Origin: Pantoea nemavictus
GTDB lineage: Bacteria > Pseudomonadota > Gammaproteobacteria > Enterobacterales > Enterobacteriaceae
Length of the DNA stretch: 64,000 nucleotides
Assembly (NCBI RefSeq): GCF_037479095.1
Contig: NZ_JBBGZW010000002.1
Coordinates: 372,001 to 436,000, forward strand
Direction: 5' to 3'
The notes beneath the pieces are model-generated. The model was not told the origin of the DNA. It searched no databases and saw only the letters and a list, made by a program, of their open reading frames with translations. This document shows positions 2,639 through 60,595 of this stretch, piece after piece. Numbering within the stretch: position 1 is the stretch's first letter; every line of letters begins with the position of its first letter. The translations under genes were made by a program, and so were the position numbers.

Positions 2639-3547
2639 TTACTCCTGCACTTCGCTGCTGCCGTCTACGCGGATGGCCACGCGGCGGTTAGGTGCGTAGC
2701 AGGCGATCTGCTCGGCTTTGCTGCCGTAGCAGTCGTGCACCAGCGGCTCGCTCATGCCGGCGCTGGCGGCGGTGATGTCACGCGCCGGAATGCCGGCCTG
2801 CACCATCAGCAGACGAATGGTTTCCGCACGGCGCTGACCCAGCGCTTCGTTGGCGGCGGCGGAACCGATCTGGTCGGTGTGGCCGATCACCTGCACGTTG
2901 CGAAGCGTGGTGTTTTCACGGCGGATCTGCTGCACCAGCTCACGAATCGCGGTGTGGCCGTTGCGGGTGATATCCGCACGGCCAGATTTACCGAAAGCAA
3001 ACAGCACGTCACTGGAGAGCGAGTAATCCTTATACTGCTTCTCCGCCACGCCGATGTACTGGCAGGCTTCGACGGTAGAGGCACGAGACAGCGTGTGCGC
3101 CTGCTGGCGCATGGCTTTCATGGCGCGCTCGGCGTCGCTGCGCGTCACCGACTGCGGCATACCGCTCAGGCCGTCACCCACTTTGACGAAGTAAGTTTCG
3201 CCGCCCGACAGGTTAGCGCGGAACGGCTGACTGCGCTTACCGGCGTACATCGGTGCGTCTTTAACGAACGCGCCGAGGCTGTGGGTGCCCGGTGCCACGC
3301 AGAAGGTGGTGAAGCCCTGGGGCAGCAGCGCCGCCTGGAATTCGCCGTCAACGTAAACGTTGGCGCTGCCGGCGTGCTGGTCGGCTTCACGGTAGAAGAC
3401 GATCTGCGCCTGCGATGCCGCCACTTTGGCCACCGGCTGATAGTTGCCGGCAAACGCGGTGGCTGCTGGCGCGGCCGTGCCTGGTGCTGCAGCAAACAGC
3501 GCGCCGCTTAGTGCCAGAACAAGGGCTGAAGATTTAAAAATAGTCAT
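2639..3547 (-). CDS. OmpA-family periplasmic protein of the adhesin locus
   Basis: A 302-residue exported protein. An N-terminal signal peptide (about 1-26, hydrophobic stretch ALVLALSGALFAAAP, likely cleavage after TAA or APA) is followed by a beta-rich domain (about 45-150; IVFYREAD, ANVYVDGEF, TYFVKVGDG) resembling the DUF2846 type. A C-terminal OmpA-like peptidoglycan-binding domain spans about 180-298, with the diagnostic VQVIGHTDQIGS and NEALGQRRAETIR segments and NRRVAIRV near the end. It probably links the outer membrane or a surface structure to peptidoglycan. It lies 66 bp downstream of the first giant Ig-repeat gene on the same strand with no terminator between, so cotranscription is likely. 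A role in displaying or anchoring that adhesin is inferred from the neighbourhood only. GGAGG precedes the ATG. Confidence 0.88.
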   Translation of the reverse strand: MTIFKSSALVLALSGALFAAAPGTAAPAATAFAGNYQPVAKVAASQAQIVFYREADQHAGSANVYVDGEFQAALLPQGFTTFCVAPGTHSLGAFVKDAPMYAGKRSQPFRANLSGGETYFVKVGDGLSGMPQSVTRSDAERAMKAMRQQAHTLSRASTVEACQYIGVAEKQYKDYSLSSDVLFAFGKSGRADITRNGHTAIRELVQQIRRENTTLRNVQVIGHTDQIGSAAANEALGQRRAETIRLLMVQAGIPARDITAASAGMSEPLVHDCYGSKAEQIACYAPNRRVAIRVDGSSEVQE

Positions 3548-3557
3548 GACTCCTCCA

Positions 3558-3580
3558 CGGCTCCCTGGTTCAGGGAGCCG
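3558..3580 (-). promoter_or_regulatory. Stem-loop directly upstream of the OmpA-family ribosome binding site
   Basis: A perfect 10-bp stem (CGGCTCCCTG / CAGGGAGCCG) with a three-base loop lies between the adhesin stop and the GGAGGAG of the OmpA-family gene. There is no T-run, so it is not a standard terminator. It may mark an mRNA processing or stability point that uncouples the two genes. Confidence 0.5.
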
Positions 3581-3613
3581 GAATTAAATAATGGTTAATA
3601 AGGTTAAGGGTTA

Positions 3614-6600
3614 TCAGTTATTCAACAGGTTGGTCTGGATCCCCTCCTGCACTAATAACTCTGCTTCCAGCGAGCTGTGCTTATAAACCTCATAGCGGAC
3701 GCCGGAAACCTGCACCGTGCCTTCCACTTTCGCCCAGTCACCCGAATCGGCGCCTTCAACTAAATCGCTGAGGTTTAATACGTCGCCTTCATTGCCTTTC
3801 ACCATCATTTGTGTGGTGTCGTCATTAATAAACAGGTTAGTGCCGCCCTGCGCCAGAATATCGCCGAGGCTGATATTCAGCGTATTATTACCGGTTCCGG
3901 TCAGGTCGATCACTTCCACCGATTTCACCATCTCACCGAGACGGGTCAGATCGATCAGCTGATCTTCGCCCTGTACGGTTAAGACATCGAGTTTACCGTC
4001 GGTACCAATAATGGCTTGTTGTGGTTCGCCTTTTTCAATATAAGCTAGTTCAATCAACTCCTCATTTAACAGCAGACTGTCTTCTTCAGTAAATTTATTG
4101 GAAAACATAACTGGAGGTATTTCAGCCATATCTCCCCAAGCAATATTATCCAGGTAGAATGTTTTGTCTCCAACAACCTCTATACGACCGATCATTGTAC
4201 CAGATGGTGCTTCATACGCATTTTTAATAAAGCCCCAAGTTTCATTAAAATCGATGTTTTTAGTTGTTATTAAGTTGCCACTTATATCGTAAATACGCAT
4301 GTATCCAACAGTATTTTGATCAGCAGCCATAAAATCAAAGGAAATACGATTAGTGGCTCCAAAGTCTATTTTAAGCAATACTTCATTATTAAGTGTAGAT
4401 CCATTCCTTTGAGCCGCAATATATTGCTCAGATGTTCTCGTGGAAATCCAAGCATTGTTCACGCCAGCTGATATTTTTAAACCTTTAACTGTAGTAAATG
4501 GCTGGCCATTTTCAGGCAAGTTTACAGTCCACCGAGTGGCACCGTTTTCGAAAGCCTCATGCCCCGTGAAATCTTCAATTGCTGGCGACGGAGCAGGTGG
4601 CAACCCAGAAACAATATCCAAATCCACCCCATTGGCCATCTCGGTTTTATTACCGGCTTTATCGATAATCACCGCTTTGATGTTGTAGCTTTCACCCACG
4701 GTCAGCTGTGGCGTGACCAGCACTTCCCAGCGTCCGCCAGCCTGCACGAAGCCGGTACCCAGCAGATTATCGTTGGCATCACGCAGCTCAATCTTCGATC
4801 CCACTTCCGAGGCATCGGCGGTGCCGATAAACAGCGGATCGCGGTCCGAGGTGCTGCCGCTAATGGCGCCGCCGTCGTCATCCTCAACGCGAGTAATCAC
4901 CGGTACGTTCGGACGGGTGATATCCACCGTCAGGCTTACCGCTGCGCTCGCCGGGCCTTCGTTACCCACGCTGTTAGTGGCTTTGGCCGTCAGCGAGTAA
5001 ACCGCTTCTGCCAGCGCCGGCTGTGGAATCACTTCCCAAACGCCGCCCTCAACACGCGCCGTACCAATGATAGTGGTGCCGTTATAGACGGTCACAATGG
5101 TGCCGTTTACGCCGGTGCCGCGAATCGCTGGCGTGGTGTCGTTGGTGAAGCCGTTGGTGATCGCCACATCCGTTGGGCCATCATTGTTAAACATACCGGA
5201 GATCGCCGGTGCCGCCGGAACGCCCAGGGCGTTGTTGATCTCGAAGTTCAACGCGTCGCTGCGCTCACTCTCGTTCTTCGCTTTATCACGAATCGCGATG
5301 CTGATTTCATAGCTGGCGTTAGGCAGATCCGTCGGTGGCGTCCAGGTCCAGGTGCCGCCTGGCTGAATGGTCACGGTCATCAGCTCGGTGTCGCCGTTGT
5401 AAATCACCACGAAGTCACCCACGAACTCGTCCAGCCCGGCACCTTTGAACTCCGGACGGGCGTCATCGGTGATCGAGGTTTCCGCAATCCAGCCGGTCTG
5501 GTCGCCCTGGTCATCCCAGGCGCCTTCGAACGCGTTGCCCGGTCCAATCTCACTTTCTGGAAGCACCGGCGCGGTGGTGTCGATGGTCAGATTGATGGTG
5601 TCACGCATCGGCGTTTCGTTGTTGGCACGGTCAATCAGCACTGCAACCAGGTTATAGGTCCCTTCGTCCAGCGCCGGATCGATCGGTGCACGCCAGGTGC
5701 CATCTTCCATTACGATGCCAGTACCCAACACGTTGCCATCCGGGTCGCGGATTTCAATGCGCCCACCGGCTTCACTTTCCGGCGCGGTACCATAAACTAT
5801 CGGTGCCGGATTGTTGGTGATCATCTCAATAACGTCGAACAGTGTGACGCCCTCGCCAGGCGTGGCGCTCTCAATGCCGATAACTTCCGGAGCTTCTGGC
5901 GGTGTAACGTCCACTTCCAGCTGAATCGGTGGACGAACCATCGGTGTTTCGTTGCCAGCTGGATCCACAATCACCGCTATCAGCTCGTATTCACGCTCTT
6001 CCAGTTCCGGGGCGAGCGGTGCCGTCCAGCTGCCGTCTGGCTGCACGATGCCTGTTCCCACCACGGTGCCATCCGGTTCGCGAATTTGCACGACCAGACC
6101 CTGGTCGGCCGGAGTCGCCGTCCCGACAACCACCGGATCAGTGATATTAATTACGTCGCCCAGCGTATTGCCATCTTCGTCTTCGATACCAATTACTTCC
6201 GGTTCGCCCGGAGGCGTGATATCGATTTCCAGATCAATCGGTGCACCGGTCTTCGGCGTTTCGTTACCGGCCGGGTCTTTGATCACTGGCGTCAGCGCAT
6301 ATTCACCTTCCTCCAGTTCCGGATCGATAATCGCTTTCCATTCACCGTTCTCGTCAACCACGCCGGTCCCTACTACGCTGCCGTCTGGTTTGCGAATTTC
6401 GACAATCAGACCTTCATCGGCTGGATCTGCGGTACCGACAATCACTGGCTTGGTGACATTGGTTATGTTGCCGAGCGGATTACCGTCAGCGTCTTCAATG
6501 CCGACAAACTCCGGTTCGCCTGGTGGCACGGTGTCCACTTCCAGCTCAATCGGTCCACCCACCATTGGGGTTTCGTTACCAGCCGGGTCGACAATGACTA

Positions 6601-9600
6601 CAATCAAGCGGTATTCGTCGTCTTCCAATTCAGGATCGAACTCTGCACGCCACTCGCCGTTTTCATCGACCACGCCGGTACCCAGCACATCGCCGTCTTC
6701 ATTACGAATTTCAACAGTTGAACCCTCGTCAGCCGGATCGCCGGTGCCGATAATCAACGGGTTCTTGTCGTTGGTCGCGCCGCCAGTAATCGGGTTACCG
6801 CTACTGTCTTCAATACCGCCCACTTCCGGTGCGGCCGGAGGAACGCTATCGATAATGAACACGAACTCATCGCTCAGTTCGCTTTCGTTGTTGGCCGGAT
6901 CACGCACCTTAATGGCAACTTTACGCTCGCCCTGGCCCATATCGGCCGTTGGCTCCATGCGCCATGTTCCGTCGATACCCACTATCTGGGTGCCCAGCAG
7001 CACCGGTGGCGTGACCGTCACGTCATAAACGTAAACGGTATGACCAGGTTCCAGACCCGCGCCGTGGAACTCAGGACGCACGTCATTGGTGTAATCGTCG
7101 ACGTTAATCGGCCCGATACGCGGTGCAATGTTATCCCACGCGCCTTCCAGCACGCTGCCTGGCACACCCACTTCGCCTTCGCCCGGCAGTACCGGTGCGG
7201 TCAGGTCCACGTCGAGGTTGATCGGCGTAGGCACCGTTGCGGTGTTGCCCGCCGGGTCCTTGATGCTGATCGAGATTTGATACTCTTTCTCTTCCAGCGC
7301 CGGTGATACCGCCACTTCCCAGTTGCCGTCGCCGTCTACCACGCCGGTGCCGAGCAGCACGCCGTCCTGATCACGCAGCTCGATGGTCGAGCCCACGTCG
7401 GCCGGGTCTGCGGTGCCTTTAAACACCGGTGACGCATCGTTGGTGGCGCCGCCGGTCACCGGGATCGGGTTGCCGTTGCTGTCCTCAATTTCGGTCAGCA
7501 CCGGTACGGCCGGGTCGGTCACGTCGACGATGATTTTCCACGCCGGGGTACTCGGCGAGGTTTTGTTGCCTACCGGATCCTCGAACACCACGCGCAGGTT
7601 GTACTCCTGCTCGTTCAGCGGGTTGGGGGTGATGCTCCAGCGGCCGTCGCGCGCAACCTGCGTACCAATCAGCCCCAGCACGTCGTCGTAGATGTAGACA
7701 ATCGTGCCGCTCGGCGCGGTGCCGGACATAATCGGCGCGCGGTCGTTGGTGTAGTCACCGTTGCCCAGCTCCACCGCCGGGGTTTCAATCGGGTTGCCGA
7801 CGTTGTCGACGATGCGGTCAAAGGTGCCGACCGGTGGCGTCACGTCCAGCTCCACCACGAAGTTGTTGCTCGGCGCGGCGCTGCCCGCCACGGTGGCGTG
7901 GATGACGTAAGACTTCTCACCGTCCGCCAGCGCTATCGGCGCTTCCCAGCGCCCGCTGGCGTCAGAGGTCGCGGTCGCGTAGAACTCGTTGTCGATGTAG
8001 ATGCTCACCACCGAGTTCGGCGTCGCGGTGCCCTTCAGGGTCGGCGTGGTGTCGTTAATCACGCCGTTATTGCCCACTTCCAACGGGCTGGCGTTAGCGT
8101 CGCCGACCAGCAGCGTCACGCTGACGCCGACGCCGGAGGTGTCAACGGTAAAGTCCAGCGCCGGTGAAGCCGGGCCGAGGTTACCCGCCAGGTCTTCGAC
8201 CTGCGCCGTCAGGCTGTGGTTGCCGTCGCCCAGCTCAGGAACCGTGTACTCCCAGGTGCCGTCAGACTTCACGTCGGTGGAGCCGATGGTCTGGCCCAGG
8301 CCGTTCTTGATGTAGACCACTCCGCCGATTTCCGGCGAGGTGCCGCGCAGCGTCGGGGTGCTGTCATCGGTGGTGTCGCCGCTGCGGATTTCGCCGGTCA
8401 CGCCGACGTCATCCCACAGCGTTACGCCGCCCGGCGCTGCCGGATCGGTGGTGTCAACGATGATCTGATAGTCACCGGTCTGGCCGCTTTCGTTCATCGC
8501 CGCATCGCGCGCCGCCACGTTGAAGTTATAGGTGTCATCGGCCAGCGGTGCGGTCGGTTTCCAGCTCCATACGCCACCGGTAACCCGCTCGGAGCCGATG
8601 ATGTTACCCGGGCCCGGGCCGTTACGGATGATGATGAGGGTGCCGTCGGTGCCGGTACCGGTTATCAGCGGCGTGCTGTCGTTGGTGTGGTAGCCGTTGT
8701 CGATACGGACCAGCGTATCGCCGTCATCGTTAAAGATGCCGTCCACGCCCGGCAGTGACGGACGTCCGCCCGCGCCGATGGTGAAGTCCAGCGAGTCAGT
8801 TTTCGCCGATTCGTTGCCCGCGACGTCGCGGATGGCAATCGCCACGCTATAGTCCGCGTTCATCAGCGGTGCGTCCGGCGTCCAGCTCCAGCTGCCGTCG
8901 TCACGCACCACCACGCTGTGCATCACGGTGTCGCCGTTGTAGATCACCACGATGTCGCCCGGGATCAGGCCCACGCCCTTGAACTCCGGACGCGCGTCGT
9001 CGGTCACGCTGTTGTCGGCAATCCAGCCGGTGTAGTCGCCCTGGTCATCCCATGCGCCTTCGAACGGCTGACCATCGCCAATGCCCGGGCTCGGATCGGC
9101 CGGTGCTTCGGTGTCGACGATAAAGACGAACTCGTCGCTGAAGTCACTTTCGTTGTTTGCGGGGTCCTTAACCTTGATCGCCACGCGCTGCTCGCCGTCA
9201 CCCATGTCAGAAGTCAACTCAAAGGACCAGGTACCGTCCTCTTCGACCACTTTTGAACCCAGCACGACCGGCGGTGTGCTGCGCATGTCGTAGATAAACA
9301 CGATGTCGCCCGGTTCGAGGTTGGCACCGCGGAACTCCGGACGCGCATCGTTGGTTGGTACCGTCGGGTCGATCCAGCCCGTGTGCGGATCGACGTTATC
9401 CCACGCGCCTTCCAGCGCATTGCCTGGCTCGCCCACGCCGCCCTCTTCCGGCAGCTCCGGTGCGGTCAGGTCCACGTCGAGGTTGATCGGCGTAGGCACC
9501 GTTGCGGTGTTGCCCGCCGGATCCTTGATGCCGATCGAGATTTGATACTCTTTCTCTTCCAGCGCCGGTGATACCGCCACTTCCCAGTTGCCGTCGCCGT

Positions 9601-12600
9601 CTACCACGCCGGTGCCGAGCAGCACGCCGTCCTGGTCACGCAGCTCGATGGTCGAGTTTACGTCGGCCGGATCTGCGGTGCCTCTGAATACCGGTGACGC
9701 ATCGTTGGTGGCGCCGCCGGTCACCGGGATCGGGTTGCCGTTGCTGTCCTCAATTTCGGTCAGCACCGGTACGGCCGGGTCGGTCACGTCGACGATGATT
9801 TTCCACGCCGGATCGCTCAGCGCGGTTTTGTTGCCAACCGGATCCTCGAACACCACGCGCAGGTTGTACTCCTGCTCATTCAGCGGGTTGGGGGTGATGC
9901 TCCAGCGGCCATCACGCGCAACCTGCGTACCAATCAGCCCCAGCACGTCGTCGTAGATGTAGACAATCGTGCCGCTCGGCGCGGTACCGGACATGATCGG
10001 CGCGCGGTCGTTGGTGTAGTCACCGTTGCGCAGATCCACCGCCGGGGTTTCAATCGGGTTGCCGACGTTGTCGACGATGCGGTCAAAGGTACCGACCGGC
10101 GGCGTCGTGTCCAGCTCCACTACGAAGTTGCTGCTCGGCGCGGCGCTGCCCGCCACGGTGGCGTGAATGACGTAAGACTTCTCGCCGTCCAGCAGCTCAA
10201 TCGGGTACTCCCAGCGCCCGCTGGCGTCAGAGGTCGTGGTCGCGTAGAACTCGTTGTCGATGTAGATGCTCACCACCGAGTTCGGCGTCGCGGTGCCCTT
10301 CAGGGTCGGCGTGGTGTCGTTAATTACGCCGTTATTGCCCACTTCCAGCGGGCTGGCGTTAGCGTCGCCGACCAGCAGCGTCACGCTGACGCCGACGCCG
10401 GAGGTGTCAACGGTAAAGTCCAGCGCCGGTGAAGCCGGGCCGAGGTTACCCGCCAGGTCTTCGACCTGCGCCGTCAGGCTGTGGGTGCCGTCGCGCAGCT
10501 CAGGAACCGTGTACTCCCAGGTGCCGTCAGACTTCACGTCGGTGGAGCCGATGGTCTGGCCCAGGCCGTTCTTGATGTAGACCACTCCGCCAATTTCCGG
10601 TGAGGTGCCGCGCAGCGTCGGGGTGCTGTCGTCGGTGGTGTCGCCGCTGCGGATTTCGCCGGTCACGCCGACGTCATCCCACAGCGTTACGCCGCCCGGC
10701 GCTGCCGGATCGGTGGTGTCAACGATGATCTGATAGTCACCGGTCTGGCCGCTTTCGTTCATCGCCGCATCGCGCGCCGCCACGTTGAAGTTATAGGTGT
10801 CATCGGCCAGCGGTGCGGTCGGTTTCCAGCTCCATACGCCACCGGTAACCCGCTCGGAGCCGATGATGTTACCCGGGCCCGGGCCGTTACGGATGATGAT
10901 GAGGGTGCCGTCGGTGCCGGTACCGGTTATCAGCGGCGTGCTGTCGTTGGTGTGGTAGCCGTTGTCGATACGAACCAGCGTATCGCCGTCATCGTTAAAG
11001 ATGCCGTCCACGCCCGGCAGTGACGGACGTCCGCCCGCGCCGATGGTGAAGTCCAGCGAGTCGGTTTTCGCCGATTCGTTGCCCGCAACGTCGCGGATGG
11101 CAATCGCCACGCTATAGTCCGCGTTCATCAGCGGTGCGTCCGGCGTCCAGCTCCAGCTGCCGTCGTCACGCACCACCACGCTGTGCATCACGGTGTCGCC
11201 GTTGTAGATCACCACGATGTCGCCCGGGATCAGGCCCACGCCCTTGAACTCCGGACGCGCGTCGTCGGTCACGCTGTTGTCGGCAATCCAGCCGGTGTAG
11301 TCGCCCTGGTCATCCCATGCGCCTTCGAACGGCTGACCATCGCCAATGCCCGGGCTCGGATCGGCCGGTGCTTCGGTGTCGACAATAAAGACGAACTCGT
11401 CGCTGAAGTCACTTTCGTTATTCGCGGCGTCCTTAACCTTGATCGCCACGCGCTGCTCGCCGTCACCCATGTCAGAAGTCAACTCAAAGGACCAGGTACC
11501 GTCCTCTTCGACCACTTTTGAACCCAGCACGACCGGCGGTGTGCTGCGCATGTCGTAGATAAACACGATGTCGCCCGGTTCGAGGTTGGCACCGCGGAAC
11601 TCCGGACGCGCATCGTTGGTTGGGGTTGTCGGGTCGATCCAGCCCGTGTGCGGATCGACGTTATCCCACGCGCCTTCCAGCGCATTGCCTGGCTCGCCCA
11701 CGCCGCCCTCTTCCGGCAGCTCCGGTGCGGTCTGGTCAATCTCCAGGTGCACCGGGTTAGTCATTTCGGTTTTGTTGCCGGCTTTATCGGTGATAACCGC
11801 GATAATTTCGTACTGTGCCTCGGCCAGCGCCGGAGAGATACGGACAACCCAGGTGCCGTCATCGCCGACGATGGCGGTGCCCAGCAGGTTGTCGTTCTGA
11901 TCGCGCAGCTCAATTTTACCGCCCGCTTCGGATGGTTCTGCGGTGCCTTTAATCACCGGTTCAGCATCCGCGGTACTGCCGCTGGTGACTGGCTGACCCG
12001 CCGAATCTTCGATGACGGTGATCACCGGCTCGGCCGGTGCCTGAGTGTCAATGATGATGCTCAGCGTCGGTGAAGGGCGACCGGTGTTGCCAGCTTTATC
12101 GCGGTTCACTACGTGGAAGCTGTAACGGTTATCCGCCAGCTCATTGGTGAATTCAAAACGCCAGCGGCCATCGGCACCGACGTCGGCTTCGCCAACCTTG
12201 ACGTTATTCAGATAAATATCAACAAAAGTGTTGCGCTCACCGGAACCGATCAGCGTCGGCTTGTTTTTATTGGTGTAGTACTCGCCTGCATTGAAGGTGC
12301 TGGCAATTTCGAAAGAAGGCGGGTTGATGATTGACGCGCCGTCTTCATCGTGCAGATCATCGATGATGGCCTGGCCTGGTGCCACGGTGTCGACCACCAG
12401 TTCAAAGCCTGGCAACGGCAGGCTTGGCTTATCGGTGATAGGATCGCGCTCAACCAGAACGATGTCGTACTCACCATCTTCCAGCGGCGGTCTTGGTGTC
12501 CAGGTCCATTTGCCATCGCCGCCGATAGTCACTGTATCAATGACTTTACCGTCATCGGTTATCTCAATTTTGTTACCCGGCTTACCGGTACCGACAAAGA

Positions 12601-13294: not shown

Positions 13295-13607
13295 GGATGA
13301 TCCCTTAAGTGTGAATTGATTTTGACGTCAACCTTCCGGGCGACGCTGAGTGAGCCTGAGAGAGTCTTTTCGAGTTGAGACATTCCCCAGATGTTAGGAT
13401 CCTACCAACTATAAGAATCGTCTGAATCAAGCCGGGTCTTGGAATGTAGGAATGCGGAGGATTTAGCTGTAGGAAAGAGGGTTTTTCTACGTTATTTCAA
13501 AGAAATACGGTGAAGACAAGCCTGTGAGTTTACGTGTGCGTTACAGCGGTTAAATAACAAAACCGCTGCTTTCAGGGCAGCGGTTTAATTTACAGACTGA
13601 AATAAAG
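13295..13607. promoter_or_regulatory. Upstream region of the first giant gene
   Basis: No gene is seen in these 313 bp. Close to the start codon is the AAGGGA ribosome site. Further up are a perfect palindrome TAGGATCCTA (13395-13404), a sequence TAAGAATCGTCTGA (13412-13425) that matches the enterobacterial RcsAB box at 10 of 14 positions, and the 13-mer CAAGCCGGGTCTT (13428-13440), which recurs upstream of the fourth giant gene. These are candidate regulator sites; no clear -35/-10 pair was identified. Confidence 0.45.
13560..13586 (-). terminator. Intrinsic terminator after the second giant gene
   Basis: Nine-base-pair stem AACCGCTGC / GCAGCGGTT at 13561-13585 followed on the minus strand by TTTGTTATTT. 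It lies 22 bp past the stop of the second giant gene and would separate it from the first. Confidence 0.8.
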
Positions 13608-19691: not shown

Positions 19692-19801
19692 GTCTGAATC
19701 CGCCTGAGTGTTGTACAGAACCAGCCCTGTAGGAAGATGGGTGGTGTTATATGGGAATTGTCTCAAATGAACAGTGGAGGTAATACGAGACGCGGCTTGG
19801 A
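18255..19801. repeat. Segmental duplication, copy A (5' part of the second giant gene)
   Basis: Nearly identical to 23752-25298 at a constant offset of 5497 bp. It covers the first Ig repeat, the two divergent Ig-like domains, the prefix domain and about 110 bp upstream of the start codon, where identity falls a little. In the coding part only about three residues differ in roughly 480. Confidence 0.92.
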
Positions 19802-20037
19802 TTTTTAACCGCAGGATTGACATTAGAAGTAATTAAATAACGACATCAGCTCGTTACTGTAAGAATGAATGTCATAAACAGATACCGTTAAACGGTCACT
19901 TGAAGTGCGGTTAATACTCGCAGGGACAACATAAAAATAAGTAGATAAACAATCAAGGCTAGAAATAATCCGGCCTTGATTTTTAATTTAAACTTTATAT
20001 TGCTGCTTACGTTGGGCGCTTAAACTGTAAATAGAAA
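19692..20037. promoter_or_regulatory. Region between the second and third giant genes
   Basis: No gene is supported. Bases 19692-19801 are a diverged copy of the 110 bp upstream of the third giant gene (25189-25298). On the minus strand both copies keep a CATATAAC sequence that could serve as a -10 element, although no good -35 was seen. The rest is AT-rich and holds the hairpin listed separately. Confidence 0.45.
19952..19985. terminator. Putative terminator between the second and third giant genes
   Basis: Eight-base-pair stem ATCAAGGC / GCCTTGAT (19952-19959 and 19973-19980). The T-rich side is TTTTT on the plus strand and TTGTTTA on the minus strand, so it could end the third giant gene's transcript only weakly. 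Confidence 0.45.
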
Positions 20038-23000
20038 TTAATGCCCGTGTAGATTAATAATTACATCCTGCTGGATCAAAAACTCAGCGTCGACTTCAGA
20101 ATGTTGCAGGACCTGATAATTCACACCTGCATGCGTCACATTACCGGCTTGATTCCAGCCATTCATTTCCGCTCCTGCTGGCAGTAAATCTGACAGGTTA
20201 ACAACGTCTCCTGCATCACCGTTGATCATCACCTGTTTGATCCCCTCATCGAGGAATAGGTCATCATTACTTATCACCAGCAGGTCAGACGCTGTGACCG
20301 TCAATTGCGGCTGCCCATCGACCCGCTCTGTGGTTTCCAGCGCGGAAGGTTCAACTGCACTTGCCAGATTGATGGCGGAATCCTCATAAGCTTCACTATG
20401 CAAACCAAAAGCACTAAAGCTTACGGGGCCAGAATCCGCGCTAGTAGCTGCTGACAGATCGTAGTTAGTTTTGCCCATGACGATATTATCAATCCAGACA
20501 CCTGAAGTGTTCAGTTCAAGAGTAACCTTGGAAAACGTCTTACCAAACGGCAGCGTTGCCCTTATTTCCTGAATAAGTCCAGAACCCGGCGTGAGTATTT
20601 GACGATCAACTTCAACACCCATGTTGTCATAAAACACCACGGTAAACCGTTCTGTATTATTAAAATCCCCTGCGGTAAACGAAATATAGTCACTGTCTGC
20701 GTTAGGCAATACCAGTTCAACTTTGGTCGTTCCCCAGAAGGTCAACGCCATGGTAGGAGACGGTGATTCCCAGCCGGCAATACCGCGGAAAAATCCTCCT
20801 GATGCGGCTCTAATTACATTGACGTCGAAACCCGCAAAATTAAAAGTTTGCCCGTTGGTAAAGGATACTGAAGCCTGCCGTTCAAAATTTTCCTGATGTA
20901 AAATTGAACTGTTGCTCTCCAGCGTACGGCCTTCAGATATATTTCCGGCCAGGTCTATCACCTTAACCAGCAGTTCATCAAAGTTACCGCGTGCGGCTGA
21001 AGACCATGGCACGCTCGCGCTTCCAGCGGCCAGATGGGCACTATCCAGCGGAAGTCTGACTTCAGTCCCGTCAATCAACAATATTAACGTATCGCCCACT
21101 TGATATTCGCTGCTATCAAATCCAATCGTCAGCGTTTCGCCATCCCATGAGACATCAGCAACTGCAGGAGGAAGCGTGGTATCAACGGTAATGATGAAGC
21201 TATCAGACGGTGCAGAGACATTCCCCGCGATGTCGGACGCTCTCACGGTCAGCTCGTGAGATCCATCGGCAAACATCGCGCTACCCCTGTATTGCCAGCT
21301 CCATGCGCCAGTCACGGCGTCGGCACGCTCGCTGCCAATCGGCAGTCCATCACGATAAATCGTGACCAGGCTACCAGGATCTGCCGTGCCGCTCAGTACC
21401 GGACGCGCGTCGTTAGTTAGCCCGGTGCCGTCATTGGTTATAGCCCCAGTCACGCCACCCGCCACCGCATCAACGATGCTGGCGATGGTGGGCTGAGCAA
21501 TTTCGGTGTCCACGTTGATGGTGAACGGATCGGATATCGTCGAAGTGTTGCCGGCTTTGTCCACCGCCTGCACGCGTAACACGTGCTCACCGTCGCTGAA
21601 GCGTCCGGTCGTCGGGTACTGCCACGTCCAGTCTGAGGTGGTGGAGACAAAGCTGTGGATTGCCGTCGCGCCGTCGTAGATGGTGATCAGGCTGCCCGCT
21701 TCTGTCGTGCCGCGAAGCACCGGGCGCGCATCGTTGGTCAGCCCGGTGCCATCGTTCGGCAGCGCGCCGGTGACGCCGCCGGCTACCGTGTCGGTCACGC
21801 TGGTGATGGTGGGCTGAGCGATTTGCGTGTCGACGTTGATGGTGAACGGATCCGACAGTGCCGAGGTGTTGCCCGCTTTGTCTATTGCCTGCACGCGCAG
21901 CACGTGCTCGCCGTCGCCGAAGCGCGTGGTGGTTGGATACTGCCATGTCCAGTCAGATGTTGTTGAAACGAAGCTGTGGATCGCCGTCGTGCCGTCGTAG
22001 ATGGTGATCAGGCTGCCCGGCTCGACCGTGCCGCTGAGTACCGGACGGTTGTCATTGGTCAGCCCGGTGCCGTTGTTGGTAATTGCGCCGGTGACGCCGC
22101 CCGCTACCGCATCGACCACGCTGGTGATGGTGGGTTGCGCAATTTCTGTGTCGACGTTGATGGTGAACGAATCCGACAGCACCGAGGTGTTGCCGGCTTT
22201 GTCCACCGCCTGCACGCGTAACACGTGCTCGCCGTCGCTGAAGCGACCGGTCGTCGGGTACTGCCACGTCCAGTCTGAGGTGGTAGAGACAAAGCTGTGG
22301 ATCGCCGTTGTGCCGTCGTAGATGGTGATCAGGCTGCCCGGCTCGACCGTGCCGCTCAGCACCGGGCGGTTGTCGTTGGTCAGGCCGGTGCCGTCGTTGG
22401 CGATCGCGCCGGTGACGCCGCCCGCCACGGCATCAACGATGCTGGAGATCGTTGGCTGTGCAACCTGGGTATCGACGTTGATGGTGAACGGATCCGACAG
22501 CACCGAGGTGTTGCCGGCTTTGTCCACCGCCTGCACCCGCAAGACGTGCTCGCCGTCGCTGAAGCGCCCGGTCGTCGGGTACTGCCACGTCCAGGTCGAT
22601 CCGGTCACAACGAAACTGTGAATCGGCGTATTACCGTCGTAAATAGTGATAGTGCTGCCCGGCTCAACCGTGCCATTGAGTACCGGACGGTTATCGTTGG
22701 TCAGCCCGGTGCCGTCGTTAGTAATCGCGCCGGTGACGCCGCCCGCCACCGCATCAATGATGCTGGAAATAGTAGGCTGCGCGATTTCCGTGTCGACGTT
22801 GATGGTGAACGGATCGGACAGCACCGAGGTGTTGCCGGCTTTGTCCACCGCCTGCACGCGCAAAACGTGCTCGCCGTCGCTGAAGCGTCCGGTGGTCGGG
22901 TACTGCCACGTCCAGTCTGAGGTTGTGGAGACGAAACTGTGGATCGCCGTCGTGCCGTCGTAGATGGTGATCAGGCTGCCCGGCTCAACCGTACCGCTGA

Positions 23001-25188
23001 GTAGCGGGCGGTTATCGTTGGTCAGCCCGGTGCCGTCGTTGGCGATCGCGCCGGTGACGCCGCCCGCCACGCCATCAACGATGCTGGAAATCGTTGGCTG
23101 TGCAACCTGGGTATCGACGTTGATGGTGAACGGGTCCGACAGCACCGAGGTGTTGCCGGCTTTGTCCACCGCCTGCACGCGCAAAACGTGCTCCCCGTCG
23201 CTAAAGCGCCCGGTGGTCGGGTACTGCCACGTCCAGTCTGAGGTGGTGGACACGAAACTGTGGATCGCGGTGCTGCCGTCGTAGATGGTGATCAGGCTAC
23301 CCGGCTCGACCGTACCGCTGAGTAGCGGGCGGTTATCGTTGGTCAGCCCGGTGCCGTCGTTAGTAATCGCGCCGGTGACGCCGCCCGCTACCGCATCAAC
23401 GATGCTGGAAATAGTAGGCTGTGCAATTTCCGTGTCGACGTTGATGGTGAACGGATCCGACAGCACCGAGGTGTTGCCGGCTTTGTCCACCGCCTGCACG
23501 CGTAACACGTGCTCGCCGTCGCTGAAGCGTGCGGTGGTTGGATACTGCCACGTCCAGTCTGAGGTGGTGGACACAAAGCTGTGGATCGCGGTGCTGCCGT
23601 CGTAAATGGTGATCAGGCTGCCCGGCTCAACCGTGCCGCTCAGTACCGGGCGGTTGTCGTTGGTGAGGCCGGTACCGTCGTTAGTAATCGCGCCGGTGAC
23701 GCCGCCCGCCACTGCATCAACGATGCTGGAAATAGTAGGCCGCGCGATTTGCGTGTCGACGTTAATGGTAAACGGATCCGACAGCACCGAGGTGTTGCCC
23801 GCTTTATCCACCGCCTTTACGCGTAAAACGTGTTCGCCGTCGCTGAACTGCCCGGTCGTCGGGAATTGCCACGTCCACGTTGAGGTGGTGGATACAAAAC
23901 TGTGTATTGCCGTGCTGCCGTCGTAGATGGTGATCAGGCTGCCCGCTTCGACCTTGCCGCTCAGTACCGGGCGAGCATCGTTGGTCAGCCCGGTGCCGTC
24001 GTTAGTAATCGCGCCGGTCACGCCGCCTTCAACCGCGTCTGTAATACTGCTGATGGTCGGTTTCGCAATCTGCGTATCCACTTCAACACGGTAATCCGCG
24101 GTCGGCTTGCTGGTGTTGCCCACTGCGTCCATGGCGGTGACGCTGATACGCTGCGCGCCCTCTTCCAGCACCGGCGTGCGGAAACGCCAGTTGCCGTCGG
24201 CGTCGGTTATTGCCGTGCCAACTACCGCGCCGTTAATGGTGATTTCAATTTTTGCACCGGGCTCTGAGCGTCCGCTCAGCCACGGCTGCGTGTCGTTGGT
24301 CAGCCCACCGGAGGGAATATCGCCGGTCAGGCTGCCGACGTTATCCGCCAGATTATCCAGCGATACCGCCGGCGGCGTGAGGTCAATGTGCAGCTCAAAG
24401 TGAACCGACGCCGCACTGATTTTGCCCTGCGGCGTGCTCTCTACCGCCGTCAGCTGATGTCGCCCTTCCGCCATAGCCAGCGGCTTAATTTTCCAGCTGC
24501 CATCTTCCGCCACCACCCCGGAGCCCAGGCATTCACCGTTGCTGTAGATATGAATCAGGTTGCCCGGCGCGCTGCCCTGGCCGCTGATATCCGGCTGCGC
24601 ATTGCCGGTGACCGCGCCATGCTGCAGGCTGGCGGATTCGCCGCCGCGCTCATCATGCCCCTGCACGATGGTCGGTGCCGGAATCGGGCTCTCTTTACCG
24701 CTGTGCTGGTTCTGCAGCGCCAGCACGCCGCCGCCCAGCGCCAGCAGACCGGCAAAGGCCGCCATGGCTTTTAAAAAGCCGTTGTCGCCCAGCGGTGAAT
24801 AGGCGGAGACCGGCCCCTGTGAGCTGCGGCTCATGATCATCACCGCGCTTTGATCGTCGGTGAACGCATCAGCATCAATGCTGGCATCGGCGGCATGAAT
24901 GTACTCGTGCAGCGCGCCGCTGGCATCCAGCCCCATCACATCGCCGGGCAGATCGTAGTAATCCACAATGATCAGCTGCGGTTCATCCTCGCCGGGCTGG
25001 CGGATCTCGAGGTTTTTGCCCTTACGTTTAAGCAACAGATGTTCAGGACCCGCCGCCGTTTTCTCCGCGCCCTGGGTGATCACATAGCGGTTGCCCGCCA
25101 CGGCCTGAAGCCTGAATGCTTTGCCTTGCGGCAGCGTGACCCGCTGCGAAGCAACGCCATCGTTTAACAACGTAAGATTTAATGTCAT
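20038..25188 (-). CDS. BapA-like Ig-repeat surface protein (third of four)
   Basis: A 1716-residue paralogue of the second giant protein. The prefix domain, hydrophobic segment (AAFAGLLALGGGVLAL) and first Ig-like domains are almost identical to it. Eight 107-residue repeats follow, then a divergent ninth ending in a different Ig domain (GSLVTIYRDGLPIGSE), another Ig-like domain, a beta-rich domain unlike that of the neighbour (about 1440-1590) and the shared C-terminal module (DLFLDEG, VNLSDLLPAG, AGVNYQVLQHSE). The N-terminal halves are thus the same while the distal domains differ, as expected if the tip of the adhesin determines the ligand. The distal domain as the ligand-binding part is inferred. 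The start is preceded by GGCGGA. No signal peptide; likely type I export. Confidence 0.88.
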   Translation of the reverse strand: MTLNLTLLNDGVASQRVTLPQGKAFRLQAVAGNRYVITQGAEKTAAGPEHLLLKRKGKNLEIRQPGEDEPQLIIVDYYDLPGDVMGLDASGALHEYIHAADASIDADAFTDDQSAVMIMSRSSQGPVSAYSPLGDNGFLKAMAAFAGLLALGGGVLALQNQHSGKESPIPAPTIVQGHDERGGESASLQHGAVTGNAQPDISGQGSAPGNLIHIYSNGECLGSGVVAEDGSWKIKPLAMAEGRHQLTAVESTPQGKISAASVHFELHIDLTPPAVSLDNLADNVGSLTGDIPSGGLTNDTQPWLSGRSEPGAKIEITINGAVVGTAITDADGNWRFRTPVLEEGAQRISVTAMDAVGNTSKPTADYRVEVDTQIAKPTISSITDAVEGGVTGAITNDGTGLTNDARPVLSGKVEAGSLITIYDGSTAIHSFVSTTSTWTWQFPTTGQFSDGEHVLRVKAVDKAGNTSVLSDPFTINVDTQIARPTISSIVDAVAGGVTGAITNDGTGLTNDNRPVLSGTVEPGSLITIYDGSTAIHSFVSTTSDWTWQYPTTARFSDGEHVLRVQAVDKAGNTSVLSDPFTINVDTEIAQPTISSIVDAVAGGVTGAITNDGTGLTNDNRPLLSGTVEPGSLITIYDGSTAIHSFVSTTSDWTWQYPTTGRFSDGEHVLRVQAVDKAGNTSVLSDPFTINVDTQVAQPTISSIVDGVAGGVTGAIANDGTGLTNDNRPLLSGTVEPGSLITIYDGTTAIHSFVSTTSDWTWQYPTTGRFSDGEHVLRVQAVDKAGNTSVLSDPFTINVDTEIAQPTISSIIDAVAGGVTGAITNDGTGLTNDNRPVLNGTVEPGSTITIYDGNTPIHSFVVTGSTWTWQYPTTGRFSDGEHVLRVQAVDKAGNTSVLSDPFTINVDTQVAQPTISSIVDAVAGGVTGAIANDGTGLTNDNRPVLSGTVEPGSLITIYDGTTAIHSFVSTTSDWTWQYPTTGRFSDGEHVLRVQAVDKAGNTSVLSDSFTINVDTEIAQPTITSVVDAVAGGVTGAITNNGTGLTNDNRPVLSGTVEPGSLITIYDGTTAIHSFVSTTSDWTWQYPTTTRFGDGEHVLRVQAIDKAGNTSALSDPFTINVDTQIAQPTITSVTDTVAGGVTGALPNDGTGLTNDARPVLRGTTEAGSLITIYDGATAIHSFVSTTSDWTWQYPTTGRFSDGEHVLRVQAVDKAGNTSTISDPFTINVDTEIAQPTIASIVDAVAGGVTGAITNDGTGLTNDARPVLSGTADPGSLVTIYRDGLPIGSERADAVTGAWSWQYRGSAMFADGSHELTVRASDIAGNVSAPSDSFIITVDTTLPPAVADVSWDGETLTIGFDSSEYQVGDTLILLIDGTEVRLPLDSAHLAAGSASVPWSSAARGNFDELLVKVIDLAGNISEGRTLESNSSILHQENFERQASVSFTNGQTFNFAGFDVNVIRAASGGFFRGIAGWESPSPTMALTFWGTTKVELVLPNADSDYISFTAGDFNNTERFTVVFYDNMGVEVDRQILTPGSGLIQEIRATLPFGKTFSKVTLELNTSGVWIDNIVMGKTNYDLSAATSADSGPVSFSAFGLHSEAYEDSAINLASAVEPSALETTERVDGQPQLTVTASDLLVISNDDLFLDEGIKQVMINGDAGDVVNLSDLLPAGAEMNGWNQAGNVTHAGVNYQVLQHSEVDAEFLIQQDVIINLHGH
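21185..24077. repeat. Eight-copy 321-bp repeat array plus one divergent copy
   Basis: Same repeat unit as in the neighbouring gene (14730-18580). Copies 1-8 occupy about 21509-24077 and copy 9 (about 21185-21509) keeps only the first half of the unit. The copies mix the same variant blocks as the other array, so the two arrays have probably exchanged sequence. Confidence 0.9.
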
Positions 25189-25298
25189 GTCTCAATCCGC
25201 CAGAGTGTTTACTGAACCAGCCCGGCAGGAAGACGGGTGGGGTTATATGGGAATTGTCTCAAACGAACAGCAGAGGTAATACGAGACGCGGCCTGGAT
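23752..25298. repeat. Segmental duplication, copy B (5' part of the third giant gene)
   Basis: Counterpart of 18255-19801 at +5497 bp. It includes the upstream 110 bp, so the duplication carried probable control sequences as well as coding sequence. Confidence 0.92.
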
Positions 25299-25386
25299 TG
25301 GTGAAATTCAGGTTTTAGTTATTGATTTGTCGTTGTTTTCGCAATGCAGATTGCAATGAAAGGCGTTTGCATAACGCCAACATTTC

Positions 25387-25420
25387 AAAAAAAAAGCCGC
25401 TATCTTAAGCGATAGCGGCT
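25387..25420 (-). terminator. Intrinsic terminator after the fourth giant gene
   Basis: Ten-base-pair stem AGCCGCTATC / GATAGCGGCT (25395-25420) followed on the minus strand by a run of nine T (plus-strand A at 25387-25395). It lies 55 bp past the stop of the fourth giant gene. Confidence 0.93.
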
Positions 25421-25475
25421 TGGTCAAGACCGTGGGCGATAGGGATTTCAAGCGACGCCCACGACGGGTAACTGA

Positions 25476-28400
25476 TTATGCTTGCAGCAGATCCTGCATC
25501 TGTTCAGCTGACAGCGCGTCACTGCTCATCAAGGTGTTAACCCCGTCTAAGCCGGTTTCAACCTGCATATCCGCGTCACTGATGACCAACTCCATCTCTG
25601 GCTGTGCAGCTGAGGTGCTAAACGCCTGGAACAGTTGTGGCGCTTCATCTGCCAGTAATGCGTTGTAGCTAAACGTCTCTGCCATCGACTGCGCTTCCTG
25701 CTCTGCGGCTTGCTCTGCGATGTATTGGCGCAGGCTGTGGGCGTTCACCTTAATCTGCACCGGCTCGCTGCTCAACGAACCTACTTTGACCTGCAGAGTA
25801 TGCTCGGTGCTGATGAAGTAACGGCTGGCGCTCCAGTTACCGTCAGCATCGGCATATTCCGTCAGCGATAAACGTCCATTCACCCACAACTCTACTTTTG
25901 CGTGCGGTGGCGCGAATCCGGTAATGCGCGGCTCGTTATCGGTCAGGCCGTTACTCTGTTGCACCGCATCCACGTTGCCTGCCGAGGAGATAACGGAGGA
26001 AATGGCCAGTTTTGGCGCAGGTGCTGGCTCTGGCGCAGGTTCAGTTACGATTGGGGTCAGATTTTCCTGCTCGTTCGCCTCTTGTGCGGCAATGAATTTA
26101 CGCAGGTTATAGGCTGAAACGGTAATTTTCACCGCTTCGCTGGTAAGAGAACCGACCTTGATTTGCAGGGTATGTTCCGCATCAATAAACCAGCGACTCG
26201 CGCTCCACTTGCCGTTCGCATCGGCACGTTCAGTGAGCGAGAGGCGTCCATTCACCCAGATCTCAACCGTTGAATGCGGCGGTGCGTAGCCAGCGATCAG
26301 CGGCTCTTTATCAGTCAGGCCGTTGCTCTGTTTCAGCGCATCAATGTTGCCTTCCGAGGAGATCACTGACGTGATGGCCAGTTTTGGCAGCGGCTCAGGT
26401 TCTGGCTGCGGTGCCGGTTCGGTTACCAGGGCTTCAACATGGACTCCCCACTGGAAATCCAGTCGTTGACCATTGATGGCGATTTCCAGTTGATGCTGAC
26501 CTGCGGTGAGCGTGGTCTGGGCAACCCATTTACCTTCAGCATCAGCCCTGGCGCTGCCAACAACATTTTTGCCTGAATAGATGAGCACCAGTTCGCCTGC
26601 AGGTGCCGTACCGGTGACAAACAGGTCGTTTGACTGCGTTTTTGCGCCTGAATCGATGATCTGAGACTGCGCCTCATCCTCCCAGACACCGGTGATCCAC
26701 AGTGGAGTGGGTTCCGGGGTGGGTTCCGGGGTGGGTTCCGGAGTTGGCTCTGGCGTTGGCTCTGGCGTTGGCTCTGGCGTTGGCTCTGGCGTTGGTTCCG
26801 GAGTTGGCTCTGGCGTCGGTTCCGGTTTCGGTTCTGGAATAGGTTCTGGAACTGGCTCAGGAATAGGTTCCGGCGTTGGCTCAACCTCTTCAACGGCAAT
26901 AACGTTCAGGTTAAAGCTCTGACTCGCGATACCGTTGGCTTTCACCACAATCTGGTTAGCACCGGTTGCCAAAGCAGATTCAGGTTCAAAACTCCATGCG
27001 CCCAGCGCATCCGCTTTGGTGCTGCCGATAAACTGATTATTGGCGTAGATTTCAACCACCGCGTTACGCGTGCTGGTGCCGAACATTTTAGGCTGTGCAT
27101 CATCAGTGGTGCCGTTATGGCGGATAATGCCGCCTTCACCCACATCATCCAGCATGCTGGTGAGCGTTGGGCTTGGGAAGCGGCTGGCATCGACGTTGAC
27201 CTGATATTCAGCGCTTTGCTGATCGCCGGAAACCACATAGAAGCCATGATTACCACCGCGGCTCACAATCACTCTCTCATCCCAGTGACCGCTGGCCTGG
27301 CTCATGGTGCTACCGATTTCTTTGCCATCAACATAAATACGCACCAGCGTATTCGGTTCGGCAAAGCCCATCAGCAGTACAGATGCCGCATTCACCGCGC
27401 TGCCCTGAATAGCCGCATCGATAAACAGAGTTGGCTCTGGCGTTGGCTCAACTTCTTCAACCGCGATAACGTTCAGGAAGAAACTCTGGCTGGTGACACC
27501 GTTGGCTTTCACTTCGATTTGGTGCGGGCCGGTCACCAGAGGCAAAGTCGGTTCAAAACTCCATACACCCTGCTCATTGGCTTTTGCGCTGCCAATAAAT
27601 AGGTTGTTGGCGTAGATATCAACTATCGCATTACGCGTGCTGGTGCCGGACATTTTTGGCTGTGCGTCGTCGGTGGTGCCGTTGTTGCGGATGATGCCGC
27701 CTTCGCCCACATCATCCAGCATGCTGGTGAGCGTTGGGCGCGGGAATCGGCTGGCATCGACGTTGACCTGATATTCAGCACTTTGCTGATCGCCGGAAAC
27801 CACATAGAAGCCATGATTACCGCCGCTGCTCACAATGACTCTTTCATCCCAGTGACCGCTGGCCTGGCTCATGGTGCTACCGATTTCTTTGCCATCAACA
27901 TAAATACGCACCAGCGTATTCGGTTCAGCAAAGCCCATCAGCAGTACGGATGCAGCCGTGACGGCGCTGCCCTGAATGGCCCCGTCGATAAACAGAGTCG
28001 GCTCTGGCGTAGGCTCAACTTCAACGGGGATGACGTTCAGGAAGAAACTCTGGCTGGTGATACCGTTGGCTTTCACTTCGATTTGGTGCGGACCGGTGGC
28101 CAGAGGCGAAGTTGGTTCAAAACTCCATACGCCCTGCTCATTGGCTTTTGCGCTACCGATGAAAATGTTGTTGGAGTAGATATCAACTATCGCATTACGC
28201 GTGCTGGTGCCGGACATTTTCGGCTGTGCGTCGTCGGTGGTGCCGTTATTGCGGATGATGCCGCCTTCGCCCACATCATCCAGCATGCTGTTGAGGGTTG
28301 GGCGTGGGAACTTGCTGGCATTGACGTTGAAGCTAAAATCGGCGCTGCGCTGATCGCCCGCCACGACATGGAAGTCATAATTCCCGCCGCTGTTAACCTC

Positions 28401-29510
28401 GACTCTTTCATTCCAGTCGCCGCCGGCGTTACTCATCGTGCTGCCAATCTCTTTGCCATCAACAAAAATACGCACCAGCGTATTCGGTTCGGCAACCCCC
28501 ACCAGCAACACCGATGCAGCTGTTACAAAACTGCCCTGAATGGCGAAGTCAATTAGTAATGGTGAACTGAACTCCTGCGCGACCTCTTCCTCAACCACCA
28601 CCGGCGAGTAATTAACCACGAAAATATCGCTGCTACCGCCCTCTTCAGTCACCAGTCTGATTTCATTGCGACCTTCCTGGAGCTGGGCTTCGAAGTGCCA
28701 CTCACCTTTATAGTCGGAATAGTCGCGATAAACGCGCTCACCATTGAGGTAAATCTCTACCGTGGTGTATTGCGAGGTCACTTTGCCGCCTAGCTGCAGC
28801 GTTGCGGAACCGACGGTTTCATCGTGGTTGACCGGCGCCCATTCGCCGTTCGGCAGTAACACCTCAACGTTATCAATCTGCGTTTGGCCAACAAAATCGA
28901 CGTATGAATCATGCACATCAATGCTGAAAGGCTGGCTGGATTCACCGCCAGCACTGATATGTAACTGCTGCGCGCCCGGCGACAATTTCTCTGCCAGCAT
29001 CCAGCTACCATCTTCACCTGCGCGCACGCTGCCCACTGCCTCATTATTGGCGTACAGCGTTACGATTTGGTTTGGCTGCGCGGTGCCGTAGATTTTCGGT
29101 GACTGGTCGTCAGTAGACTGTCCCGGGCGCAGATAACCTTCGCTGCCGATGTTGTCATAGATATGGCTGATTTGCGGTTCGCGTGGATGAATAGCGGCGA
29201 CATTAAAACTGTACTCGTCACTGCGCATGCCTTCTGCTGTCATGACACTTAAACGATGTTCGCCGTTGGCCAGAACGGGAGTAAAGCTCCAGTTTCCTTT
29301 TGCATCGGCTGTTACCACCTTAATCACATTATCGCCGTCCATGATGCGTAGCATGCTGAACGGGGCAGCACTGCCCGCCAGCGTTGGCGTGCGATCCAGC
29401 GTGGTTGCGCCGGGTAAGATTAAACCGGCATCCTGAGCATCGGATGTAATGGAAATAATAGCGGGACGGGAAAGGGGATTTGCTGAGTGTGATACATTTC
29501 CTGGTATCAT
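25476..29510 (-). CDS. Ig-like-repeat protein with a Pro-Glu linker (fourth of four)
   Basis: A 1344-residue protein made of bacterial Ig-like domains. It starts directly with such a domain ([15 protein letters not shown]) and has neither the BapA-like prefix and hydrophobic segment nor the C-terminal module of the three neighbours. Residues about 315-875 contain three copies of a 188-residue unit ([30 protein letters not shown]). Residues about 875-940 are a Pro-Glu-rich linker of repeating PTPEP. Two further similar domain pairs follow, and the last 45 residues are acidic ([14 protein letters not shown]). AAGGAG lies eight bases before the ATG. Its repeat style and position make it part of the same locus, but how it would be exported is unclear. 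It could be a partner or a structural component rather than an adhesin. Confidence 0.85.
26694..26885. repeat. Short tandem repeat encoding the Pro-Glu linker
   Basis: About 190 bp of imperfect 12-bp units (plus-strand GGCTCTGGCGTT and GGTTCCGGAGTT variants), encoding PTPEP/PIPEP/PKPEP on the minus strand. Such arrays commonly change length in multiples of 12 bp, which here would keep the frame. Confidence 0.9.
26885..28560. repeat. Three tandem 188-codon repeats in the fourth giant gene
   Basis: Equivalent points occur at 27154, 27721 and 28285, i.e. spacings of 567 and 564 bp. The two downstream copies (27154 and 27721 regions) are the most alike; the upstream copy is more diverged. Confidence 0.88.
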
Positions 29511-60564: not shown

Positions 60565-60595
60565 CCTGAATTTTGTGCAGGAGGAGGAGCGTCCC

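Follow-up and report, generated by a model that had tools for sequence, protein, structure and literature searches.

Giant Ig-repeat adhesins, a type I secretion operon and a candidate wall anchor in an island of a Pantoea megaplasmid

How would several giant surface proteins, encoded side by side, be exported and then held at the cell? The question is raised by a 64,000-nucleotide stretch of Pantoea nemavictus DNA (the window; C2:372001-436000 of a 5.19 Mb genome in two contigs, C1 and C2, the latter of 887 kb). Here, four intact minus-strand open reading frames (ORFs) encode giants with immunoglobulin-like (Ig) repeats, G1 to G4, of 3226, 2071 (2027 if counted from the G3-matching start), 1716 and 1344 residues, with the gene for an OmpA-family protein following G1 after 66 bp (Table 1). 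Our explanation as a whole, to which we give a probability of roughly 0.7, is that the cluster supplies the adhesins of a megaplasmid-borne type I secretion island, encoding tethered, wall-anchored fibres with variable tips.

The cluster sits in an island of ~47 kb on a Pantoea megaplasmid. The stretch beside it has its best matches in Pantoea plasmids (56 records, with Pantoea sp. BRR-3P at the top), and in BRR-3P the chemotaxis-receptor and cold-shock genes that bracket the cluster are only 70 bp apart, against about 47 kb here; judged by this spacing, the related plasmid is without the island at this site. Besides the giants, the island holds an ABC/HlyD/TolC-family operon, three DUF2846-like proteins (putatively periplasmic and including the window's OmpA protein), BvgS/EvgS-like kinases and LuxR-type regulators. 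A DUF2846-OmpA profile matches (E ≤ 1e-20) in 13 of 61 genomes of the genus, and the island is present in four of these 13: the window's genome and, named by matching coordinates, RIT-PI-b, P. endophytica and SOD02. The version in Pantoea sp. SOD02 is simpler and lies elsewhere on its plasmid, with a single giant (55% to G1 over 2082 residues), an OmpA protein (70%), a second DUF2846-like protein, the ABC (71%), HlyD, TolC, regulators, two kinases and a 400-residue one-Ig protein. With its genes intact and the system found in several other genomes, the cluster is not the disrupted peculiarity of one genome that an earlier, sequence-only reading of this DNA had allowed for.

Constant ends and variable tips

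All four giants exceed the cut-off of 50 bits for Ca_tandemer NF033510, a model of Ca2+-type Ig repeats (G1 592, G2 411, G3 301 and G4 149 bits), and by this score qualify as putative Ca2+-stabilised Ig-repeat adhesins. At E ≤ 1e-3, Pfam assigned no RTX repeat family to any of the four giants, and a search of the genome for Big_5 (PF13205) gave no match. G1, G2 and G3 share an N-terminal prefix (G1 against G3, 31% over 123 residues, E = 2e-16), a hydrophobic stretch following it (19-residue scan) and a C-terminal module (38% over 90 residues, E = 1e-19, in a single comparison). By these alignments, the sharing of prefix and module is far beyond chance. In all this the sequence-only reading was borne out, as it was for the four Ig-repeat ORFs and the OmpA-family protein themselves, but it had also called the prefix BapA-like, and that link did not hold. 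We rejected BapA membership of G1–G3, as their prefix gives no match to NF033677, the model of the BapA prefix; alignment with the N-terminus of the genome's own BapA gave a probability of 2.6% (hhalign), and the N-termini of G1 and G3 returned no families at E ≤ 10. Searching the whole genome with NF033677 gave a sole hit, on the chromosome, in a frame of 5056-5059 residues. The chromosomal BapA-like giant (L014:1-15170, C1:1255500-1270669; L numbers are our handles for sequence stretches) carries the true BapA prefix and adjoins an LssB-type pump. The prefix of the island giants is also carried by a P. endophytica island protein (L072:3768-4925).

G2 and G3 resemble the products of a duplication, judging from 91% DNA identity over 3.8 kb from the start and 99% identity over the first 270 residues. 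Their 107-residue repeat units have a mean pairwise identity of 89% in G2 (12 units) and 79% in G3 (9 units), and clear differences are confined to the tip (23% identity) and the module (41%). The earlier statement that the middle and distal domains of the giants differ is thus right for the tips and wrong for the middles of this pair.

A view of the tips comes from Pantoea sp. USHLN256, which has two giants of 3529 and 2807 residues on a 951,322-bp contig; a contig of equal length encodes an OmpA partner with 99% identity to that of the window. Against these two giants, the first 165 residues of G1 are 90% and 78% identical and the last 102 are 99% and 99% identical, compared with 30% and 31% for the tip. 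On this evidence, the ends are constant and the tips variable among these giants. Nine tip or module-protein sequences were searched against Pfam at E ≤ 1. The G2 tip matched CBM_4_9, a carbohydrate-binding family, at E = 4e-4 and 21.2 bits (curated cut-off 25.9); the other tails gave CBM_6 (E = 0.3) and an OB-fold (0.16) for G1, chance-level matches for G3, L069 and L072 (E 0.03-0.25), and no Pfam row for L070 and L071. In a sequence search of solved structures, a profile of the G1 tip and module gave chance-level rows (30 at E ≤ 1, best 0.009) and a G3 profile gave none. Since only the G2 tip carries a family hint, and one below the cut-off, a lectin function is something we infer. Similar giants are known from Acinetobacter, where BAP, BLP1 and BLP2 are Ig-repeat proteins with a common N-terminal motif that vary among strains (PMC4647330; this and the other papers cited are drawn on in excerpt), but G1 to G4 score 657, 697, 499 and 248 against the BLP2 model NF040520, all below its equivalog cut-off of 750.

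The sequence-only reading saw alternative or cooperating surface fibres. The architecture is consistent with surface fibres, and alternative fits better than cooperating, because the tips differ between constant ends and a strain of the same species carries a different giant (see below).

G4 matches neither the module profile nor the prefix profile, in keeping with its first description as a giant with Ig repeats and neither end module, and we would count it as an island protein that may be exported by the same route or otherwise. That it is foreign to the export system altogether, as a cytoplasmic or decaying protein, is an idea that the missing ends favour and that we find very doubtful: G4 is intact, two strains have it at the edge of the island (87% over 502 residues), and its last 60 residues include 11 acidic ones and no Lys or Arg. 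An acidic, base-free C-terminus is compatible with a type I signal.

The island pump and the C-terminal module

The window itself contains no type I secretion genes; the export route was expected to lie outside it or to be shared, and a type I secretion operon is indeed found on one strand, 6.8-12.3 kb left of the window edge and within the island. Its ABC is of LssB type (866 bits, cut-off 693), its adaptor belongs to the HlyD family (331 against 209) and its TolC-family protein passes the Pfam OEP cut-off. By these scores, a complete predicted LssB-type ABC/HlyD/TolC-family operon shares the island with the giants. In the TolC-family protein (L010:4734-6677), the N-terminal region is rich in Pro and Ala (residues 31-245, 37% P+A), and that of the chromosomal paralogue is similar.

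The C-terminal module and type I secretion genes occur together, which the sequence-only reading had named as support to look for. Across 198 family-level genomes, the module (E ≤ 0.001) is found in 23 and an LssB ABC (E ≤ 1e-190) in 90, and every one of the 23, among them the genome of the window, also has the ABC, compared with 67 of the 175 others (Fisher 2e-9, kinship not corrected). For strong module matches only (E < 1e-8), the ABC is present in 8/8 against 82/190 genomes (Fisher 0.0015, again uncorrected for kinship). In 15 of these 23 genomes, the profile is matched only in part, at E 1.6e-6 to 7e-4; weak matches thus carry some of the association, and the strong-only test is weaker. 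Half of the module places (28/56) are within 10 kb of an LssB ABC, where ~1% would be expected at random; of the strong places (n = 37), 11 are within 10 kb and 21 within 30 kb, and 4 are on contigs without a listed ABC.

Several observations weigh against the island pump as the exporter of these giants. For the other half of the module places (28 of 56), no LssB ABC lies within 10 kb, and the modules of G1, G2 and G3 themselves lie 12.6, 22.6 and 29 kb from the island ABC. The TolC-family protein reaches 160 bits with TIGR01844, below the cut-off of 225. The genome has three further LssB-type ABCs, and four chromosomal module proteins (852, 835, 1067 and 613 residues) are at least 60 kb from any LssB ABC, so that pump and substrate can be apart and their pairing is not unique. 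G1–G3 could therefore use another type I secretion system of the genome, for example the BapA system or a 70%-identical paralogue at C1:1.53 Mb, with the island pump serving something else. The paralogous pump (L011:7803-13311, C1:1532802-1538310) is 70, 77 and 57% identical to the island one in ABC, HlyD and TolC, and no adhesin or other substrate gene was recognised beside it in a 19-kb stretch. With four LssB-type ABCs to choose from, and chromosomal module proteins that imply pairing at a distance, this alternative is coherent, but the island pump sits with a giant and an OmpA gene in SOD02, RIT-PI-b and P. endophytica, and we consider the alternative quite improbable.

In the reading we favour, the island pump is the likely exporter: G1–G3 would leave the cell C-terminus first, the prefix would stop in the periplasm or the TolC channel, and the fibre would stay tethered with its tip outward. 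Such an arrangement resembles the retained adhesins of the LapA/BpfA type, in which a giant adhesin adjoins a type I secretion system and, in the bpf cluster, an OmpA-like protein, SO4321, is encoded (PMC4523816). It is unlike them in that a search for LapG (Peptidase_C93) finds no match here (among 14 control genomes, one, Caulobacter, matches) and no RTX repeat family is found in the giants; for both reasons the LapA release scheme is not applicable as such, and release of LapG type would not operate here. Salmonella SPI-4 (SiiABCDEF, with SiiE) likewise combines a giant Ig-repeat adhesin, a dedicated type I secretion system and an operon-borne peptidoglycan-binding accessory protein, but SiiA is the subunit of an inner-membrane proton channel, with SiiB (PMC12607715), whereas the island has several giants, and its partner protein is of the DUF2846-OmpA kind, with a signal peptide recognised by eye.

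A candidate anchor to the cell wall

The OmpA-family protein was said to follow the first giant. Its gene is indeed beside G1, but in the order of transcription G1 comes last of the giants, with the OmpA gene downstream of it. The OmpA-type domain has the expected fold and the Asp/Arg pair, at spacing 15, that has a recognised role in such domains; the alignment rows for this protein cover mainly residues 163-300 and barely reach the DUF2846 half. Two other island proteins, of 270 and 168 residues (DUF270 and DUF168), are its paralogues, the wall-binding motif of the OmpA domain being intact in the window protein, degenerate in DUF270 and missing with the whole domain in DUF168. The DUF2846-like proteins align with one another over the DUF2846 domain, and with PF11008 (cut-off 34.3) DUF270 scores 42.0, DUF168 28.7 and the second SOD02 copy 31.1. 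Relatives of the DUF2846-OmpA protein are named from Pantoea, Enterobacter, Pseudomonas, Burkholderia and Variovorax.

The gene follows a prefix-bearing gene in 25 of 46 judgeable rows, and 13 of these 25 upstream genes are without the C-module. Because it trails prefix genes even where the module is absent, we propose that the protein anchors the retained end to peptidoglycan. In the periplasm, it would grip the prefix by its first domain and peptidoglycan by its OmpA domain, so that the cell wall would hold the fibre; DUF270 and DUF168, whose wall-binding part is degenerate or missing, may be accessory. This proposal has to contend with 17 of the 46 DUF2846-type genes whose upstream neighbour lacks both prefix and module, with 4 whose neighbour has the module only, and with the DUF2846 score of the window protein, which at 30.2 is below the cut-off.

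Alternatively, the DUF2846-OmpA protein might aid export, as SiiA may in SPI-4, or serve general envelope stability. The gene is also found close to type I secretion genes where no prefix-bearing gene precedes it; SiiA, which binds peptidoglycan, is dispensable for SiiE release into the medium (PMC12607715), and Shewanella SO4321 affects biofilm in a role given as unknown (PMC4523816). We regard this as a tentative possibility, less likely than anchoring, given the 25 rows that do follow a prefix-bearing gene, 13 of them without the C-module, and an OmpA partner that is only 52% identical between two strains of one species, against 96% for HlyD. Anchoring of the fibre has a parallel in AtaA-TpgA, where a periplasmic protein reinforces the anchoring of a giant fibre, but AtaA is a trimeric autotransporter (PMC13082670) and the window protein is far below the cut-off of the TpgA model NF047726 (76 bits against 350), matching it only with its OmpA-type C-terminal part.

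Type I secreted giant adhesins are already known. How retained fibres resist pulling forces outside the LapA/LapG scheme is, to our knowledge, an open matter, and a DUF2846-OmpA partner that often trails the retained-end gene offers a concrete, testable candidate answer. Among titles and abstract openings of the open-access literature, none was recognisable as dealing with this Pantoea island or with DUF2846 in type I secretion (one title concerns an RTX-like adhesion protein of Pantoea stewartii, PMC11438254), and the excerpts of PMC9020721, PMC10587679, PMC7716237, PMC7730722, PMC12077191 and PMC12153261 had no bearing on the partner protein.

The same elements recur on the chromosome in a three-gene cassette at nine loci (L053:6346-12954, C1:1474345-1480953; L074-L081). 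It comprises a prefix-bearing Ig protein of 699-768 residues without the C-module, a DUF2846-OmpA gene, and an Ig protein of 914-1068 residues with the module (undetected in L076), as if both ends of one giant were on separate proteins; no LssB pump was recognised in those stretches. Cardiobacterium (L090, L091) has a distant (30%) DUF2846-OmpA protein, with no neighbour like the island proteins.

Strain differences and the island regulators

Downstream of the pump are two LuxR-type response regulators (RR1 and RR2) and then HK1, a hybrid kinase resembling BvgS/EvgS. Between the pump and the OmpA gene come another such kinase, HK2, and the regulator RR3. HK2 has two SBP_bac_3 stretches and PAS, kinase, receiver and Hpt domains. 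Its top NCBIfam match is EvgS, and the SBP_bac_3 pair would be Venus flytraps by analogy with BvgS; unlike BvgAS/EvgAS, the 448 bits of HK2 are far below the EvgS cut-off of 1995, and two such kinases share one adhesin island. A further island gene encodes a 433-residue one-Ig protein (Ig433, L010:11014-12315), which seems by eye to carry a truncated first half of the C-module and diverges faster than the pump.

RIT-PI-b, labelled the same species, carries the island at the corresponding site, between flanks of 97-99% DNA identity. It is without G1–G3 at their place and has instead one giant of 3258 residues (34% to G1; first 165 residues 71%, module 63%), the sole module place on its contig, which comes with the 52% OmpA partner on the other side of HK2. 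Protein identities are 98.5% for HK1 (1082 residues compared), 98% for RR1, 99% for RR2 and RR3, 96% for HlyD, 92% for the ABC and 89% for HK2; lower values are found for DUF270 (64%), a lipoprotein-like protein of 147 residues (67%), DUF168 (63% over 125 residues) and Ig433 (44%). Taking together this pair of strains and the comparison of G1 with the two USHLN256 giants, tips, giants and periplasmic partners differ and most regulators stay, which may give alternative binding specificities.

Differences at fourfold sites are 30-71% from about codon 440 of tolC to about codon 560 of hk2, and 4-16% in HK1, RR1, RR2, the last 200 TolC codons, RR3, HK2 561-1208, the cold-shock gene and the first 300 codons of G4; the rest of G4, its repeat part, is outside the tract and differs by 32%. 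We read this pattern as a probable exchanged tract with its ends inside two genes, tolC and hk2. The idea that only the unlike adhesins and their partners were exchanged was dropped, as the fourfold sites put the ABC, HlyD and most of TolC in the same tract; that these pump genes are nonetheless alike in protein is explained by protein-level constraint.

The differences between the strains may then be passive, one recombination tract bringing in a diverged allele on which unlike partners and sensor domain hitchhike, and we give this even odds. It is favoured by the gathering of synonymous divergence in one tract, apart from the repeat part of G4, and by Bordetella BvgS, in which the Venus flytrap domain 1 (VFT1) also holds the most variable positions (PMC2737282). 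Against it, at similar synonymous divergence inside the tract, protein identity is 87-98% for the ABC and HlyD but 41-55% for Ig433, DUF168, the TolC extension and HK2 residues 101-200, so that the latter parts evolve faster, which relaxed constraint could also bring about. In HK2, residues 1-300 (the outer sensor domain) are 47-77% identical per 100-residue block and residues 301-560 are 92-96% identical. HK2 differs strongly between the strains only in this outer periplasmic part, and HK1 is uniform at 98-99%.

Hitchhiking explains the tract, and in this one strain pair the faster protein change in mostly periplasm-facing parts makes a further reading worth testing: the tips, the wall-anchoring partners, the periplasmic extension of TolC and the outer sensor of HK2 might form a matched, exchangeable set. 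HK2 would then sense, via the periplasmic partners, whether its own adhesin is present or how its export stands, and HK1 a common environmental signal, though we think the whole reading unlikely. As a natural comparison, the island lets two strains of one species be set side by side: giant, candidate anchors and sensor domain differ, and most of the regulatory frame stays.

Table 1. Positions in the window of the giants, their parts and neighbouring features
Feature	Position	Strand	Remarks
HK2, BvgS/EvgS-like hybrid kinase, 3' end	3..878	+	gene starts outside the window; whole gene L010:14252-17878
RR3, LuxR-type response regulator	977..1594	+	Pfam GerE 62.4, Response_reg 42.9 bits; 99% in RIT-PI-b
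ASCH-domain small ORF, between RR3 and OmpA gene	2029..2400	-	Pfam ASCH 26.0 bits, cut-off 21.2; coordinates by hand from reading frame
Terminator-like hairpin after OmpA gene	2564..2585	-
Candidate periplasmic partner, 302 residues	2639..3547	-	by-eye signal peptide; DUF2846-like domain, scoring under the Pfam cut-off; OmpA-type peptidoglycan-binding domain
G1, putative giant Ig-repeat adhesin	3614..13294	-	3226 residues (339 kDa)
G1 constant C-terminal module	3617..3922	-	99% to two USHLN256 giants
G1 variable tip segment	4103..4477	-	30-31% to two USHLN256 giants
G1 N-terminal prefix region as aligned	12720..13294	-	includes hydrophobic stretch at about 12797-12853
Terminator-like hairpin after G2	13560..13586	-
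G2, putative giant Ig-repeat adhesin	13608..19691	-	2027 residues from G3-matching start, 12 units of 107 residues; ORF opens to 19823, 2071 residues
G2 C-terminal module	13611..13880	-
G2 tip	13881..14345	-	weak CBM_4_9 match
G3, putative giant Ig-repeat adhesin	20038..25188	-	1716 residues, 9 units of 107 residues; close to G2 except tip and module
G3 C-terminal module	20041..20310	-
G3 tip	20311..20775	-	23% to G2 tip
Terminator-like hairpin after G4	25394..25421	-
G4, Ig-repeat protein	25476..29510	-	1344 residues, without prefix or C-module

Hairpins that come straight after G4, G2 and the OmpA gene point to separate transcripts, though the overall hairpin total is near the shuffle expectation. 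Elsewhere in the window, fliD is missing at 36539-36559, where RIT-PI-b has it (L113:2770-4182; Pfam FliD_N and FliD_C) and where it is annotated at the corresponding place in other Pantoea plasmids too. The 887-kb replicon also carries malT and a maltodextrin phosphorylase gene, at window positions 57672-63046.

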